Shown: positions 6,371-22,257 of the stretch, piece by piece | Numbering within the stretch: position 1 is the first letter of the stretch | Layout of the letters: every line of letters starts with the position of its first letter | From: a virus | DNA length: 23,684 bases | IMG/VR virus record: IMGVR_UViG_3300025736_000208 | Coordinates: 1-23,684 of that record | Reading direction: 5' to 3' (one strand) | Notes under the pieces: model-generated | Told to the model about the DNA's origin: nothing | The model's input: the letters and a program-made list of their open reading frames with translations, nothing else | The model's database searches: none | Position numbers and translations under genes: made by a program

Positions 6371-7399
6371 TTACTCAACCACTGCCTGGCTGTCGGTCAA
6401 GATTGTGTCGTCAACAATACGGATAGGTATCTGACTTTGGAAAGCTGTTACTTCCCTGCCGAATACTTCCATTGGAGACCACATGACGTTAGCCTTATCC
6501 AGGCCGTAAATTTCCATCTGTGTCTTGACGGTAGGATTAACGTAGATTCGCGTCCTGTTACGGTTGAACTTGCCATTGTTAAGCAGCTTGATCAGGTTCT
6601 GCGTGCCACCATCTTCAAACGACTTTGACGCTCCCTGAGTCGGGTTGATGTTACAAAGTCTTGCGATCTTGAGATTGTTTTCAACGCAAAGACCGGCGAA
6701 CGCTTTAAACTGGGCTACATAACCATAGAATTTGGCCGTAACATTGTCATCTTCGCCTATCACTTCTTTTCCCTTATCGCGGATAGACACACCAAACGGT
6801 GCATTTCTTGCATAACTACCTACTGGATAAAGCCCATAAGCTCCGCCGCTCATGTTTGTATTCCACTCAACTACCAGAACACTTGTTCCGACTCCTGCCG
6901 TATAGCCGTTGGACTGTACGTTGTTCAAGCCGGTAGGATTGAGAGCACTAAGCCTTTGAATCAGACCGTTCATGTTCTCACTACCATCATCCTGGTCGCC
7001 GTTGATAAACTCGTTGACTATATCTTCGCCGAGTTTGCGAACGTGACCTTCATCTTCCTGACGCAGCTTGAATCCTGGATTTGCGAGGGTGTCAATCTCG
7101 TCCTCATCGATCTCCCTGCGACGTTCCTGAAGCGTAACGTCTTCATATACGACCTGTTTGTTACGCTTGGAAGCGTTTACGCCTTTGTAAAAGATTCTTT
7201 TTGTGCTTGAGACCATTCCGGTATCACGCATAATCTTATGCTTGAGGCCCATATTGGCCTCCATGAACGGAACGTCCATAAAGAAATCGTCTACGTCTTC
7301 GTTCATTACACTGATGATGGGCAGGACGGTTTTGCCGTCCGAAGTTTCTTTGGCCCTATCTAGAAGTGTGTACTTGCTGTTAATGTATTTCGTTGTCAT
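6371..7399 (-). CDS. Major capsid protein, epsilon15 gp7 / BPP-1 Bbp17-like
   Basis: The 342-residue length fits epsilon15 gp7 (about 335 aa). The N-terminal segment TLLDRAKETSDGKTVLPIIS, then VPFMEANMGLKHKIMRDTGM, has the pattern of this HK97-fold subfamily. After it come VVYEDVTLQERRREIDEDEID and a long helix reaching VNEFINGDQDDGSENMNGL. GVSIRDKGKEV and FKAFAGLCVENNLKIARLCN form the later part. The scaffold is a separate gene upstream and the cement gene lies downstream, as in BPP-1. The gene ends in tandem TAA codons. The AGGGAG SD at 7408-7413 is buried in a long predicted hairpin of the leader, so capsid translation may be controlled by RNA structure. Confidence 0.85.
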   Translation of the reverse strand: MTTKYINSKYTLLDRAKETSDGKTVLPIISVMNEDVDDFFMDVPFMEANMGLKHKIMRDTGMVSSTKRIFYKGVNASKRNKQVVYEDVTLQERRREIDEDEIDTLANPGFKLRQEDEGHVRKLGEDIVNEFINGDQDDGSENMNGLIQRLSALNPTGLNNVQSNGYTAGVGTSVLVVEWNTNMSGGAYGLYPVGSYARNAPFGVSIRDKGKEVIGEDDNVTAKFYGYVAQFKAFAGLCVENNLKIARLCNINPTQGASKSFEDGGTQNLIKLLNNGKFNRNRTRIYVNPTVKTQMEIYGLDKANVMWSPMEVFGREVTAFQSQIPIRIVDDTILTDSQAVVE

Positions 7400-7583
7400 G
7401 CTGATAACTCCCTAAAATAAACAATATAAACTATTATTTTTCGGGAGTTATCCGCACTTTGCGGCTTCCCTGACACTTAGCGGTGGTTTACACCGGTCTG
7501 CCCTTTGCAGACTAAGCATCAGATCTCTTTCGAGGTTGTCTGAACAACTATTTTAAATCACTGAGTTACCCTTGCGGGTTCAG
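7400..7583 (-). promoter_or_regulatory. Highly structured RNA leader of the major capsid gene
   Basis: The leftward transcript between the Cys-rich gene and the capsid gene folds almost completely. In transcript order there is (1) CTGA/TCAG (7583-7580:7564-7561) around an ACCC-GCAA-GGGT tetraloop hairpin. (2) GTTGT/ACAAC (7548-7544:7539-7535). (3) A 3-bp GAAA-tetraloop hairpin (7534-7525). (4) An 11-bp helix 7522-7512:7480-7470 with two G-U pairs, closing a three-way junction with hairpins 7511-7507:7501-7497 and 7495-7491:7485-7481. (5) CCGC/GCGG (7464-7461:7455-7452). (6) A perfect 10-bp helix 7452-7443:7412-7403, plus 7 inner bp (7440-7434:7420-7414), that buries the SD. GGGA at 7470-7467 could instead pair with TCCC at 7446-7443 and free the SD. 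Confidence 0.7.
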
Positions 7584-7813
7584 CTTATATGGGTTTTCTT
7601 CGGTTCAAAAAGGATACATCCAAAATCAGGAGAGGTTTCCACTCCATCCACTCCCTCGCCCATTGTATCAAATCTTACTTTGCTCGTATTAACTAAAACG
7701 CTACACCCCCATTGCAATATTCCTCCAGCATTATCTACAAGTGGACCATTATCTTTATTCCAGTGTATACAGTTACTACACTCTGCTTTAATGTTCCGAC
7801 TGCCATCGTCCAT
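7580..7813 (-). CDS. Small Cys-rich protein, possible zinc ribbon
   Basis: The 77-residue protein has a GAAAGG ribosome-binding site. It has a C-x2-C pair near the N-terminus (CSNCIHW), a third cysteine in WGCSVL and a fourth in SPDFGCILFEP; four spaced cysteines suggest one zinc-binding site. Small proteins ending in a PDFGC-hydrophobic-x-E pattern are frequent in phage genomes, with unknown role. It lies between scaffold and major capsid genes, where BPP-1-like phages usually have nothing, and its segment is bounded by a 17-bp direct repeat. It may be a later insertion. Confidence 0.7.
   Translation of the reverse strand: MDDGSRNIKAECSNCIHWNKDNGPLVDNAGGILQWGCSVLVNTSKVRFDTMGEGVDGVETSPDFGCILFEPKKTHIS
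7582..7598. repeat. 17-bp direct repeat, copy 1
   Basis: The sequence agcttatatgggttttc occurs exactly here, over the last codons of the Cys-rich gene, and again at 7840-7856 over the last codons of the scaffold gene. The two copies are read in different frames, so shared protein sequence does not explain them. Confidence 0.75.
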
Positions 7814-7839
7814 GTCTTTTTAACCTTTCCCTTCTTATT

Positions 7840-7856
7840 AGCTTATATGGGTTTTC
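7840..7856. repeat. 17-bp direct repeat, copy 2
   Basis: Exact second copy of the repeat at 7582-7598; the spacing between copies is 258 bp. The copies bracket the Cys-rich gene, as expected from insertion or duplication by short-homology recombination. Confidence 0.75.
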
Positions 7857-8601
7857 CAGCTTCATTATACTTGTACGTTGGAAAACCGTCTGATTCTTTT
7901 GCGTTTGTCGATTCACCGAATACAGTTCTGCCCTCGTTTACCAACGGAGCAATCTCGGCTAACAAATTTCTAATCGCAGGGCTATTGCCGATCCCTAGAT
8001 TGTCGAGAAGGGTCTTAACTTCCGATCCACCCTTAAACTTTGCCAGGGCATCGTCAGTACCCTTGATAAAGGTATCGTATTTCTCTTTGTGCAGCTCCTT
8101 CATTCCGGCAACTTCGGACGCCATAAGAGCCAGCCCTTTGTCTTCCAAGCCTTTGAACTGACCCTGCAAGGTTTCAACTACCTTGCCCCAGATAGACGAT
8201 ACCACACCAGCTGGAGCACCAGCGGCCAAAGCTGCTTCTTTCACAGCCGCGGCAACACCAGTAAAGCTTTCCTTGTCGTCACCGTCTGGAATGTCCATCG
8301 CGTAACCGTCAACAGATTCAGGAACACCAGTCGCCTTGCGGTATGCCTTGATGTCGTCTTCGCTGGCATCTTTACCGGGGATATTGATCATTCCTTTGGT
8401 CCGTTCGGCGAAGTCAGCGTCGCCCTTGCTGATCTGTCGCTGAGCACTGGCGTAATTCTTTACCAGTGTCGCTTGATCGTTCACGTTCTCGAACATCTTA
8501 GTCGGCTGCTGTTTCGTTTCCGGATCGTTGTAATAATCATCTCCGAGATGTTCTTGTACGGTTTCAAGGTTAATCACGCCATCTGTAAATAATTCACTCA
8601 T
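7843..8601 (-). CDS. Capsid scaffold-like protein
   Basis: The 252-residue acidic protein is mostly helical and lies upstream of the major capsid gene, where BPP-1-like phages encode their scaffold. A recognisable phage scaffold motif is IPGKDASEDDIKAYRKATG followed by VPESVDGYAMDIPDG (about residues 74-106). Next come Ala/Lys-rich helices (KEAALAAGAPAGVVSSIWGK, then FKGLEDKGLALMASEV) and a C-terminal helix around NSPAIRNLLAEIAPLV. Scaffolds direct shell assembly and leave before or during packaging. No protease catalytic triad is evident. The last codons overlap copy 2 of the direct repeat. Confidence 0.7.
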   Translation of the reverse strand: MSELFTDGVINLETVQEHLGDDYYNDPETKQQPTKMFENVNDQATLVKNYASAQRQISKGDADFAERTKGMINIPGKDASEDDIKAYRKATGVPESVDGYAMDIPDGDDKESFTGVAAAVKEAALAAGAPAGVVSSIWGKVVETLQGQFKGLEDKGLALMASEVAGMKELHKEKYDTFIKGTDDALAKFKGGSEVKTLLDNLGIGNSPAIRNLLAEIAPLVNEGRTVFGESTNAKESDGFPTYKYNEAGKPI

Positions 8602-16563: not shown

Positions 16564-16755
16564 ATGACAGACGAAAAGGATTACACATTACTAAGCAGGA
16601 GTAAGGCAGCGGAATTTTTGGGGTTGTCAATATCGTCCTTTGACACGGCCCGCAAGAAGGATAATTTCCCCGCCCCGGTTGTCTTATTGAACTCTAATAA
16701 ATGGATGCGATGCGACCTTGAACAGTACATCCAAGACTCGAAAGAAGCATCGTAA
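16564..16755 (+). CDS. AlpA/excisionase-like DNA-binding protein
   Basis: The 63-residue protein is a single winged-helix unit of the MerR/AlpA (HTH_17) type: LLSRSKAAEFLGLSISSFDT, then RKKDNFPAPVVLLNSNKWMR and CDLEQYIQ. The order helix-turn-helix, phe-pro, small wing with Trp, then a D-x-x-x-Y/W-I helix is typical. Such proteins act as excisionase-type or transcription regulators. Its promoter is bracketed by an inverted repeat that could be its operator. It overlaps the HNH gene as TAATG. No integrase is visible, so a regulator is more likely than an excisionase. Confidence 0.8.
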   Translation: MTDEKDYTLLSRSKAAEFLGLSISSFDTARKKDNFPAPVVLLNSNKWMRCDLEQYIQDSKEAS

Positions 16756-17252
16756 TGAAAAGGATTGACATCAGCACTCCGAAATACCCAAATACATTTA
16801 CCGAAGTTGACGACTCGGACTTTGAATGGGTCAACGTGGATAAATGGCACGCAGCAGAGCCTCGCAAAGGCAAGCTTTATGCCCGGCGAACCGTCCGTAT
16901 CAATGGCAAGCGGATGGCATTGGGAATGCACGTCGCAATTCTTGGCGAGATTGAAGGCAAAGAGATCGATCACCGCGACGGTAATGGATTGAACAATCAA
17001 CGGAACAACCTACGGCACTGCACGACCGCAGAGAACCAGATGAACAGCAAGAAGCGAGTCGACAGCACCAGTGGCTATAAGGGTGTTTCATGGAGTGAGG
17101 ATAATAAGAAATGGCGACCTGAAATAACACACAACGGCAAAAGAATCCATCTCGGCTATCAGTTTTGTCTTATCAAAGCCGCCAAATGTTACGATAAGGC
17201 CGCAAAAAAATATCACGGCGAATTTGCAAGCCTCAATTTTAAGGAATATTAG
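16755..17252 (+). CDS. HNH endonuclease with AP2 DNA-binding domain
   Basis: The 165-residue protein carries an HNH nuclease core at about residues 59-98 (HVAILGEIEGKEIDHRDGNG, then LNNQRNNLRHCTTAENQMNS). The DH pair, the central Asn residues and the NL-RHC stretch are typical. An AP2/ERF-like DNA-binding domain follows at about 107-162 (GYKGVSWSEDNKKWRPEI, ending HGEFASLNF). This is the free-standing HNH-AP2 homing endonuclease layout, common in phages. It nicks or cuts a target site and can spread its own gene. It lies between the AlpA-like gene and a coiled-coil gene without splitting a recognisable neighbour. Confidence 0.9.
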   Translation: MKRIDISTPKYPNTFTEVDDSDFEWVNVDKWHAAEPRKGKLYARRTVRINGKRMALGMHVAILGEIEGKEIDHRDGNGLNNQRNNLRHCTTAENQMNSKKRVDSTSGYKGVSWSEDNKKWRPEITHNGKRIHLGYQFCLIKAAKCYDKAAKKYHGEFASLNFKEY

Positions 17253-20819: not shown

Positions 20820-21515
20820 ATGTTAACGAAAGAAGTAATTTTATTTAACAGGAACCGCTTTGTTGCTTTGCTCGAATCAACTGAGCGAAAAGGGATCCCC
20901 GAGCTTATAACCTATTTGGATGATGAAGGCTTTTTTGAGGCCCCTGCTGCACCAGGCCCACCTAAAGTATTCCACGGTTGCTATTACGGTGGGCTTTGTA
21001 AACACTCACTGGACGTTTACGATAAGCTTGTTGAGCATGTCGGGATTTACAAACCGCAGATAAAATCCGGTTTCGGCCAGATGCAACTCAAGTTTACCGA
21101 TGAAAACCTGATCATCGCCGGTTTATTGCATGATGTATGCAAGATTAACGCCTACCAGCGGACCAAGGCTGATGATGGTTTCACGAATAACCGCAACAAA
21201 GAAAAGGGTCATGCCAGATTATCCCTGATGCGGATCCAGAAGTTTATCAAGCTGGATAAGATCGAAATGCTTATGATTAAGTTCCACATGGGCGTTTACG
21301 GTTGCATCGAATTCCAGGACGAAGGCAAGGAGGACAAAGGCGAATACAACATTCGCGGCGATCACTCAGCTTGCGAAGGCATGACCAAAGAAGCCTCCAA
21401 GAAATTCCGCTATGGTAAATCTATGTCGAACGTATGGTATCACAACCCGGTCTGTAAAGTGTTCTCACTCTGCGATGAACTTGCTACTTTGAAGGAAAAA
21501 GCAGATGAAGCTTAA
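20820..21515 (+). CDS. HD-domain phosphohydrolase
   Basis: The 231-residue protein has FHGCYYGGLCKHSLDVYDKL (about 51-70), which supplies the first His, and the HD motif LLHDVCKIN (102-110). Then come KGHARLSLMRIQKFIKL and a late metal or core segment SLCDELATLKEK. This resembles HD hydrolases such as YhaM-type 3'-5' exonucleases and the nucleotide phosphohydrolases encoded by phages. It may trim nucleic acid ends or act on nucleotides; the substrate cannot be decided. It overlaps the MBL gene by 11 bases, which implies co-expression with the recombination module. Confidence 0.8.
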   Translation: MLTKEVILFNRNRFVALLESTERKGIPELITYLDDEGFFEAPAAPGPPKVFHGCYYGGLCKHSLDVYDKLVEHVGIYKPQIKSGFGQMQLKFTDENLIIAGLLHDVCKINAYQRTKADDGFTNNRNKEKGHARLSLMRIQKFIKLDKIEMLMIKFHMGVYGCIEFQDEGKEDKGEYNIRGDHSACEGMTKEASKKFRYGKSMSNVWYHNPVCKVFSLCDELATLKEKADEA

Positions 21516-22257
21516 TCAGCTAAATTCAGGAAGCAGTGGCAATTTATATGAAGTCACTGCTTCCAACGGAAAGCGGATCATGCTGGAGTGCGGCGTAACG
21601 TGGCCGAAGCTCCAAAAGGCACTTGATTACGATATCAGCCGTTTCGAGGGTTGTCTGGTCACTCACCAGCACAAAGATCATTCTAAGTCACTTGCTGAAA
21701 TCATGCAAGCCGGGATTGACACTTATGCCGTTGAGGATGTTTTTGAGTCGCAAGACTTATCCGGCCATCGGCGGGCGAAGGTTATCCGCAACAAGGATAT
21801 GATCAAATTCGACAGCTTCCAGGTGTTCGTTTTCGACCTAAGCCATGATGTGCCGATAGTCGGCTTTATTATCCACGAGAACCAAACCGGCGAGAAGTTG
21901 CTATTCTGTACCGATACGTTTTATGTTATGCGCAAAAACGATGACGACGATGACTTCACCACCTATAAATTTAAACACAAATTTGACATCATCGCCTTGG
22001 AATGCAGTTATAACCGCGACATATTGACCAAGCTGGTCGATACCGGCGAAGTAAACGAGGTTGTCGCTAAACGCCTTTTGACAAGTCACATGGAGAAAGA
22101 GAACACTAAGACATATATCCGCGATTACTGCGATCTTTCTAAATGTAGAGAGATCCACTTGCTTCATCTTAGTGGATTGAATATTGATAAATGGCAAACA
22201 CAGAAAGAGTTCCGGGAAGAATTCTTTATAAAGACAGTTATTGTTGGAGATGAGTAA
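21505..22257 (+). CDS. MBL-fold metallohydrolase, nuclease-like
   Basis: The 250-residue protein has the metallo-beta-lactamase metal motif THQHKDHSK (residues 53-61, with His54, His56, Asp58 and His59). Further metal and core segments are FDLSHDVPIVGFII, FCTDTFYVM, ALECSYN, and LLTSHMEKENTKTYI followed by LLHLSGLN. The N-terminal LNSGSSGNLYEV is typical of the YycJ/VicX-like branch, whose members include nucleases. Phage copies are often near RecT-type genes, so end resection is a reasonable role but is inferred. It is coupled to the next gene as TAATG. Confidence 0.85.
   Translation: MKLNQLNSGSSGNLYEVTASNGKRIMLECGVTWPKLQKALDYDISRFEGCLVTHQHKDHSKSLAEIMQAGIDTYAVEDVFESQDLSGHRRAKVIRNKDMIKFDSFQVFVFDLSHDVPIVGFIIHENQTGEKLLFCTDTFYVMRKNDDDDDFTTYKFKHKFDIIALECSYNRDILTKLVDTGEVNEVVAKRLLTSHMEKENTKTYIRDYCDLSKCREIHLLHLSGLNIDKWQTQKEFREEFFIKTVIVGDE

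Follow-up and report, generated by a model that had tools for sequence, protein, structure and literature searches.

No product of a tailed phage is made in larger amounts than the capsid protein, whose timing relative to scaffold and portal is usually ascribed to operon order and the strength of ribosome-binding sites. The leader in front of the major capsid gene of an uncultured virus raises the question of whether this gene is also controlled by the fold of its own RNA and, if so, by what. The window, meaning the whole stretch of DNA that was analysed, is a 23.7-kb IMG/VR virus record of which the minus strand is the transcript of the late block. An earlier note on this DNA had interpreted the leader as a riboswitch or protein-responsive RNA that buries the Shine-Dalgarno (SD) sequence of the capsid gene. 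The structures it described were confirmed at the coordinates it gave, its interpretation as a whole was partly supported, and two features absent from it were found: a duplicated P0/P4 module and a competition between P0 and P1.

Genomic setting

The window capsid gene matched the GP7 profile with an E value of 3.8e-43 and its capsid type is epsilon15-like. Portal, terminase and scaffold/protease genes lie 5' of it, in the same order as in epsilon15. Downstream genes in the related loci L007, L009, L019, L023 and L025 also match Pfam GP7. The features of the region, in the order of the transcript, are:

7843-8601 (-): scaffold/protease-like gene upstream of the leader (PHROG 3742/458)
7580-7813 (-): 77-aa Cys-containing ORF between the scaffold/protease gene and the leader
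7561-7583 (-): P00, hairpin CUGA-A-CCC-GCAA-GGG-UAAC-UCAG with a GCAA loop (sequence and fold)
7519-7543 (-): P0, hairpin UCAG-ACAA-C-CUC-GAAA-GAG-A-U-CUGA with a GAAA loop
7470-7522 (-): P1, 10 bp, 7522-7513 with 7479-7470, closing a three-way junction (covariation)
7496-7512 (-): P2, hairpin (compensatory changes at every pair)
7481-7495 (-): P3, hairpin (covariation)
7465-7470 (-): strand a, anti-anti-SD GGGAAG; its pairing with strand b is P4, with the SD freed
7452-7464 (-): P4b, apical hairpin CCGC-AAAGU-GCGG (covariation)
7443-7451 (-): AUAA loop strand (7451-7448) and strand b (anti-SD CUCCC, 7447-7443)
7403-7413 (-): strand c, SD AGGGAG and its 3' extension
6371-7399 (-): major capsid gene, the regulated gene (Pfam GP7, PF20911; PHROG 212)

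The stop codon of the 77-aa ORF (UGA, 7582-7580) is where P00 begins. This ORF has a CxxC motif and further Cys residues, is apparently present in L015 too and is lacking in the other leader carriers; a Pfam search with it gave no match and it does not look like the ligand of the switch. Elsewhere in the window an HNH endonuclease with an AP2-like domain, possibly a free-standing homing endonuclease, is encoded between the late and early gene blocks (16755-17252, +). A metallo-beta-lactamase-fold protein (21505-22257, +) matched anti-Pycsar Apyc1 weakly, at 24 bits against a cut-off of 50, and is a possible counter-defence gene.

Structure of the leader in the window

Folding of the minus strand from 7380 to 7600, the check proposed for the leader (7400-7583, -), gave a minimum free energy of -68.9 kcal/mol compared with -43.4 +/- 4.1 in 200 dinucleotide shuffles (z -6.2), none of which was as low. 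Both GNRA tetraloop hairpins that had been described were located on the minus strand, P00 at 7583-7561 (GCAA) and P0 at 7543-7519 (GAAA), as was the three-way junction, in which P1 encloses P2 and P3. The junction-closing helix had been drawn with 11 bp; ten of these stand as P1, including the in-register tandem U-G/G-U wobble on the minus-strand RNA, but the eleventh pair (7512-7480) fits P2 better in the alignment. The SD is hidden as described by a perfect 10-bp helix (7412-7403 with 7452-7443) plus inner pairs, and the alternative pairing of 7470-7467 with 7446-7443 exists, so that G7470 has two roles, the other being to close P1.

P00 is variable, being present in only some relatives, and is a possible third copy of an internal-loop module. 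P0 is the first copy of this module, which has a 1x4 internal loop that in the window is drawn as 2x5, and the AUAA strand (7451-7448) is the module loop of the second copy. The 3' strand of P0 (CUGA, 7522-7519) is common to P1, and P0 and P1 are therefore mutually exclusive. The P2 loop letters AAAG (7506-7503) are strongly conserved. When the SD is hidden (OFF) the SD helix covers the AUAA loop and G7452, the end of P4b. No intrinsic terminator was found in the leader on the transcript strand. A group I or II intron or a ribozyme was rejected, there being no Rfam match and the flanking reading frames being separate genes.

Relatives and distribution

Relatives were gathered from viral contigs by capsid-based and pattern-based searches, then with a covariance model (R1); one capsid alignment (A5) was too divergent to scan with and was split into two (A6 and A7). 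Besides the window, 27 uncultured phage contigs carry a related leader, and all of these 28 distinct leaders lie directly 5' of a GP7 capsid gene with one copy of the leader core per genome record. A second covariance model (R2), built from 25 leaders, recovered the three left out of it, L315 (E 4e-12), L288 (6e-5) and L311 (1e-3), each match sitting just 5' of a capsid gene. R2 also matched Vibrio phage MZH0603 (L298:3120-3218, E 0.014) within the gene that follows the capsid gene; this match was treated as chance. A loose DNA pattern hit at least 119 stretches of the viral contigs and R1 scored all the new ones as chance; a tighter pattern over the viral contigs found no additional member. 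Pattern searching of genome contigs gave only matches that the model scored as chance, and hence no prophage or host assignment.

In the leaders found via capsid genes, the upstream ORF and the start of the capsid gene lie about 140-250 nt from each other, a few spacings being longer; at leaderless loci the gap is about 30 nt or less. These leaderless relatives can be translationally coupled. Coupling to the upstream gene as the sole control of the leader-bearing genes was rejected, because the upstream stop and the SD helix are separated by considerably more than 100 nt and a terminating ribosome cannot open the helix from there.

The leader was sought in the cultured or isolate GP7 phages epsilon15, BcepC6B, BPP-1, phiV10 and HU1 and was absent; it was likewise absent from Jess A, MZH0603, Ab31, PfDIW6, cyanophages and the other isolate GP7 records examined. 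In cultured epsilon15-like phages the gap is about 30 nt or shorter. In the capsid tree the carriers fall into three separate deep groups (three changes), a scatter that represents either one gain with losses or transfer. Carriers' capsids diverge to 18-25% identity, and to 18-24% when compared with the window's, and the RNA core stays alike: CUGAUGC, the AAAG loop and a CCGA that follows the anti-SD persist across diverged carriers.

This distribution bears on the idea that the leader is bound by free capsid (or scaffold) protein, which thereby lowers or raises its own translation. Each genome has the leader at one place only, in front of the capsid gene, and autogenous control has phage precedents in T4 gp32 and gp43, both named for it in a review of T4 (PMC3014915). 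However, the RNA core is unchanged in kind over such divergent capsids, the capsid family is the same in leaderless relatives, and binding to P4 would free the SD and not hide it. Autoregulation of this type is unlikely.

Three further loci were noted. L007:2745-3001 is a GC-rich leader from the window's capsid clade in which an SD helix (CCACCUCU/AGAGGUGAG) and a P0-like hairpin can be seen by eye; its core scores marginally with the model (E 1.1), its b-c helix is clear by eye and it is probably a degenerate member of the family. At L324:1280-1513 the gap in front of a GP7 capsid gene is 232 nt long and contains a strong GC-rich hairpin with Ts after it, which is terminator-like and unrelated to the switch. 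In the 100-nt gap before the GP7 capsid gene at L280:2870-2971 a different fold covers the SD too, and neither model matches it.

Evidence that the element acts as RNA

A lack of conservation or covariation in homologous leaders had been set as the finding that would tell against the fold; the helices clearly show both. Standard pairs were kept in 96.9% of the base-pair cells of 25 aligned leaders. Double-changed compensatory cells numbered 102 in these leaders, as against 23.3 +/- 4.1 when shuffled and 22 or fewer in slid controls, and compensatory change was seen at 23 of 26 pairs, including every pair in P2, P3 and P4b. On the transcript strand G-U cells far outnumber A-C cells (63 versus 6), from which it follows that the constraint is on RNA and not on DNA. 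Fold z scores averaged -4.3 across the 28 leaders compared with -0.7 for the matching stretch in 23 leaderless relatives. Well-folding outliers occurred among these controls (z -3.0, -3.6 and -5.4); the outliers, L320, L273 and L299, fold within coding sequence and the motif is absent from them.

The whole window gave no Rfam match at the gathering score, and relaxing the search to E 10 for the leader gave chance-level sub-threshold matches only, none of them credible. A 2017 survey is said to have reported 224 candidate RNAs, the families of which should be in Rfam 15. Capsid genes are never mentioned in the main text of two surveys of structured RNAs (PMC2864571, PMC8040213), and further queries of open-licence papers returned no such capsid-gene element. 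The statement that no leader of this kind had been described thus withstood both the Rfam and the literature searches. Judged by its sequence, the leader is a new structured-RNA family that uses a known kind of mechanism and lies outside every catalogued family.

Competition for the anti-SD strand

Strand b can pair either with the upstream, SD-like strand a (P4, SD free) or with strand c (SD hidden). Both pairings covary, and these compensatory changes on both sides uphold the claim of a switch-like, SD-sequestering capsid leader that is real as RNA. The a-b helix has 3-6 bp with compensatory changes from GC to AU and from AU to GC, as in the variants GGAAG:CUUCC, GGAGA:UCUCC and GGAGG:CCUCC. 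The b-c helix reaches past the SD core in a leader-specific manner (GAUAACUCCC:GGGAGUUAUC, GUCUAUUCUCC:GGAGAAUAGAC; also CUUACUCC:GGAGUAAG and GAGUUCUCC:GGAGAACUC). The matching score of b and c was 155.5 for own partners versus 111 for swapped partners, with a permutation p of 2e-4 that, like the other permutation values, is optimistic since the leaders are related and not independent. The helix is short or mismatched in L002, L005, L025, L305 and L309.

In predicted folds the SD lies within the b-c helix, with a probability of being unpaired of about 0, in 26 of the 28 leaders. Both states could be compared in 27 leaders, and in 26 of these the OFF fold is 4-20 kcal/mol below the ON fold; the two energies are about equal in L025, and L272 was outside this comparison. 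The leaders therefore have a conserved SD/anti-SD pairing, as an RNA switch that controls translation should, and, conserved as well, a competing anti-SD pairing that excludes the first and leaves the SD free. That the two folds exist, exclude each other and form a switch architecture is well supported by these comparisons.

A long perfect helix located between two late genes might also be an mRNA protection or processing structure, such as an RNase III site or a stabiliser, with the pairing of the SD incidental. The complementarity to the SD extension is matched leader by leader, though, and conservation extends to the competing a-b pairing, so that this explanation is exceedingly improbable.

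A second competition and a duplicated module

CUGA, the 5' strand of P1, can pair either upstream (P0) or downstream (P1). Changed letters retain P0 and P1 pairing alike in L289 (CUAG three times), L315 and L311; P1 is fully kept in L306 and P0 in L308, and the P1 strand of L006 was not parsed. P0 and P4 share an internal loop in which one nucleotide (mostly C) stands opposite N-N-N3-N4, followed by C or U. N3N4 were identical in P0 and P4 of 19 of 20 distinct leaders where shuffling expects 5.95 (p < 5e-5), an optimistic p value given that related leaders are not independent and some P0 partners were set by hand, as the nearest UCAG (L002, L018, L023, L025 and L306), or by best helix (L278 and L288). 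The sole mismatch was in L018, and the variants seen were AA, AC, GA, UA, UC, AG and UG. N1 agreed in 15 leaders (7.3 expected) and N2 in 9 (8.05 expected), the latter being no signal.

The modules still match in L278 (AG/AG) and L288 (UG/UG), which belong to a separate capsid clade and have long P0 insertions. The same letters recur in separated leaders (UC in L272 and L309; AA in the window clade, L306 and L311), which argues for several independent concerted changes. L311 is without P2 and P3, and the P2/P3 junction is therefore conserved but dispensable; the core function appears to be that of P0, P1, P4 and the SD helix. A scan of six loci for extra copies of the module elsewhere gave nothing clearly above shuffles. 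In L307:1300-1380 P0 is preceded by a further P0-like hairpin (UCAGUUUACCCGAAAGGCCCUGA), which repeats the UUUA loop as a third module copy.

These observations suggest that P0 and P4 are two copies of one candidate binding site for a coevolving phage protein, which suits a loop that differs between phages and changes in concert in both hairpins better than an invariant small molecule would. A small-molecule riboswitch, with the P1-P2-P3 junction and P4 as the aptamer and a host metabolite or ion choosing between P4 and the SD helix, would share the layout of anti-anti-SD, anti-SD and SD, and an unseen pocket would fit the strongly conserved junction and P2 loop. Against it, concerted variation of the switch-placed loop at two places is unusual for a fixed ligand pocket, the junction is missing in L311, no Rfam riboswitch matched and the controlled gene is structural, not metabolic. 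The combination of an invariant pocket with a metabolic or transport gene, the mark of a metabolite riboswitch, was not found, and we consider a riboswitch rather unlikely.

Two explanations dispense with a ligand. In a co-transcriptional timer nascent P4, being upstream of the SD and so bound to form first, would allow early translation until the longer SD helix replaced it; the greater stability of OFF in nearly all leaders agrees with this, but the duplicated, covarying module is left unexplained, and such a timer is improbable. In T4 the SDs of genes e, soc, 49 and I-TevI are buried in RNA stems, a burial that late promoters inside the stem relieve for gene e (PMC3014915). By analogy, early read-through RNA would hide the capsid SD and late transcripts starting within the leader, lacking the anti-SD, would be translated. 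However, a search of 7300-8000 gave no sigma-70-like promoter (late promoters of this phage may be of another type), no common promoter-like box is evident by eye in the 20-60 nt spacers, and P0, the a-b covariation and the paired module letters would go unexplained; we give this little credence.

Proposed mechanism

The favoured reading, which we hold to be probable, is that the leader is a default-OFF, protein-responsive, cis-acting bistable switch of capsid translation. In the OFF state, the thermodynamic default, P1 and the three-way junction would be formed and strand b would pair with the SD in strand c, leaving ribosomes unable to start on the capsid gene. In the ON state b would pair with strand a (P4), CUGA would leave P1 for P0 and the SD would be free. 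Through this sharing of strands every ON hairpin would exclude its OFF counterpart, and ON would present P0 and P4 together as two copies of the 1x4 internal-loop hairpin. Most likely a phage-encoded RNA-binding protein would bind both modules and stabilise ON, so starting high-level capsid synthesis at the right time. We infer that the ligand is a protein, and likewise its identity and activation as the direction of control; binding that stabilises P4 implies activation instead of the usual negative feedback. As predicted energies strongly favour OFF, a change to ON would require about 10 kcal/mol from the ligand or a contribution from kinetics.

Comparison with known systems

In riboswitches that control translation, mutually exclusive anti-SD pairings set access to the SD below a conserved upstream junction. 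The capsid leader resembles them in its SD, anti-SD and anti-anti-SD layout and its upstream junction, and differs in having no Rfam match, a loop varying in step in two hairpins and a virion structural gene. The autoregulatory leaders of ribosomal proteins such as L20 and S15 are structured, have a protein ligand and sometimes two similar sites. The capsid leader is like them in being structured, in its putative protein ligand and in its two similar sites, but precedes a non-ribosomal gene and has no sequence or Rfam relation to them. In the coat-protein operator of the MS2 type a hairpin with unpaired A/Y-rich letters is read by a viral protein and translation is controlled; the capsid leader, by comparison, belongs to dsDNA phages and has, in two copies, a 1x4 internal loop between two helices, which is a candidate site only.

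Among phage RNAs, manA and wcaG are structured RNAs from phages and marine metagenomes near host-metabolism genes of T4-like cyanophages (PMC2864571). The capsid leader is similarly a structured RNA of phages, with a different gene context and no covariance-model match. A further comparison is with the T4 leaders of e, soc, 49 and I-TevI, where the SD of a phage gene is likewise buried in a helix and burial of the SD and/or AUG gives timed translation. Unlike the capsid leader these are simple hairpins opened by late internal promoters, in other phages and before other genes; the conserved three-strand switch and the duplicated module are described for none of them in the T4 review, according to which T4 has no characterised riboswitch (PMC3014915).

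Implications

The leader may represent a class of phage regulatory RNA that is new, namely a double three-strand switch through which a single protein, by reading P0 and P4, opens the capsid SD, although we put this forward only tentatively. The concerted change of the two loops gives a direct handle on the ligand, and the switch could serve as a genetic part. Its retention across carriers whose capsids share as little as 18-25% identity, together with its absence from the cultured relatives checked, points to a dedicated post-transcriptional control of the capsid gene. If true, the double switch would mean that a lineage of tailed dsDNA phages has a positive control dedicated to capsid translation.
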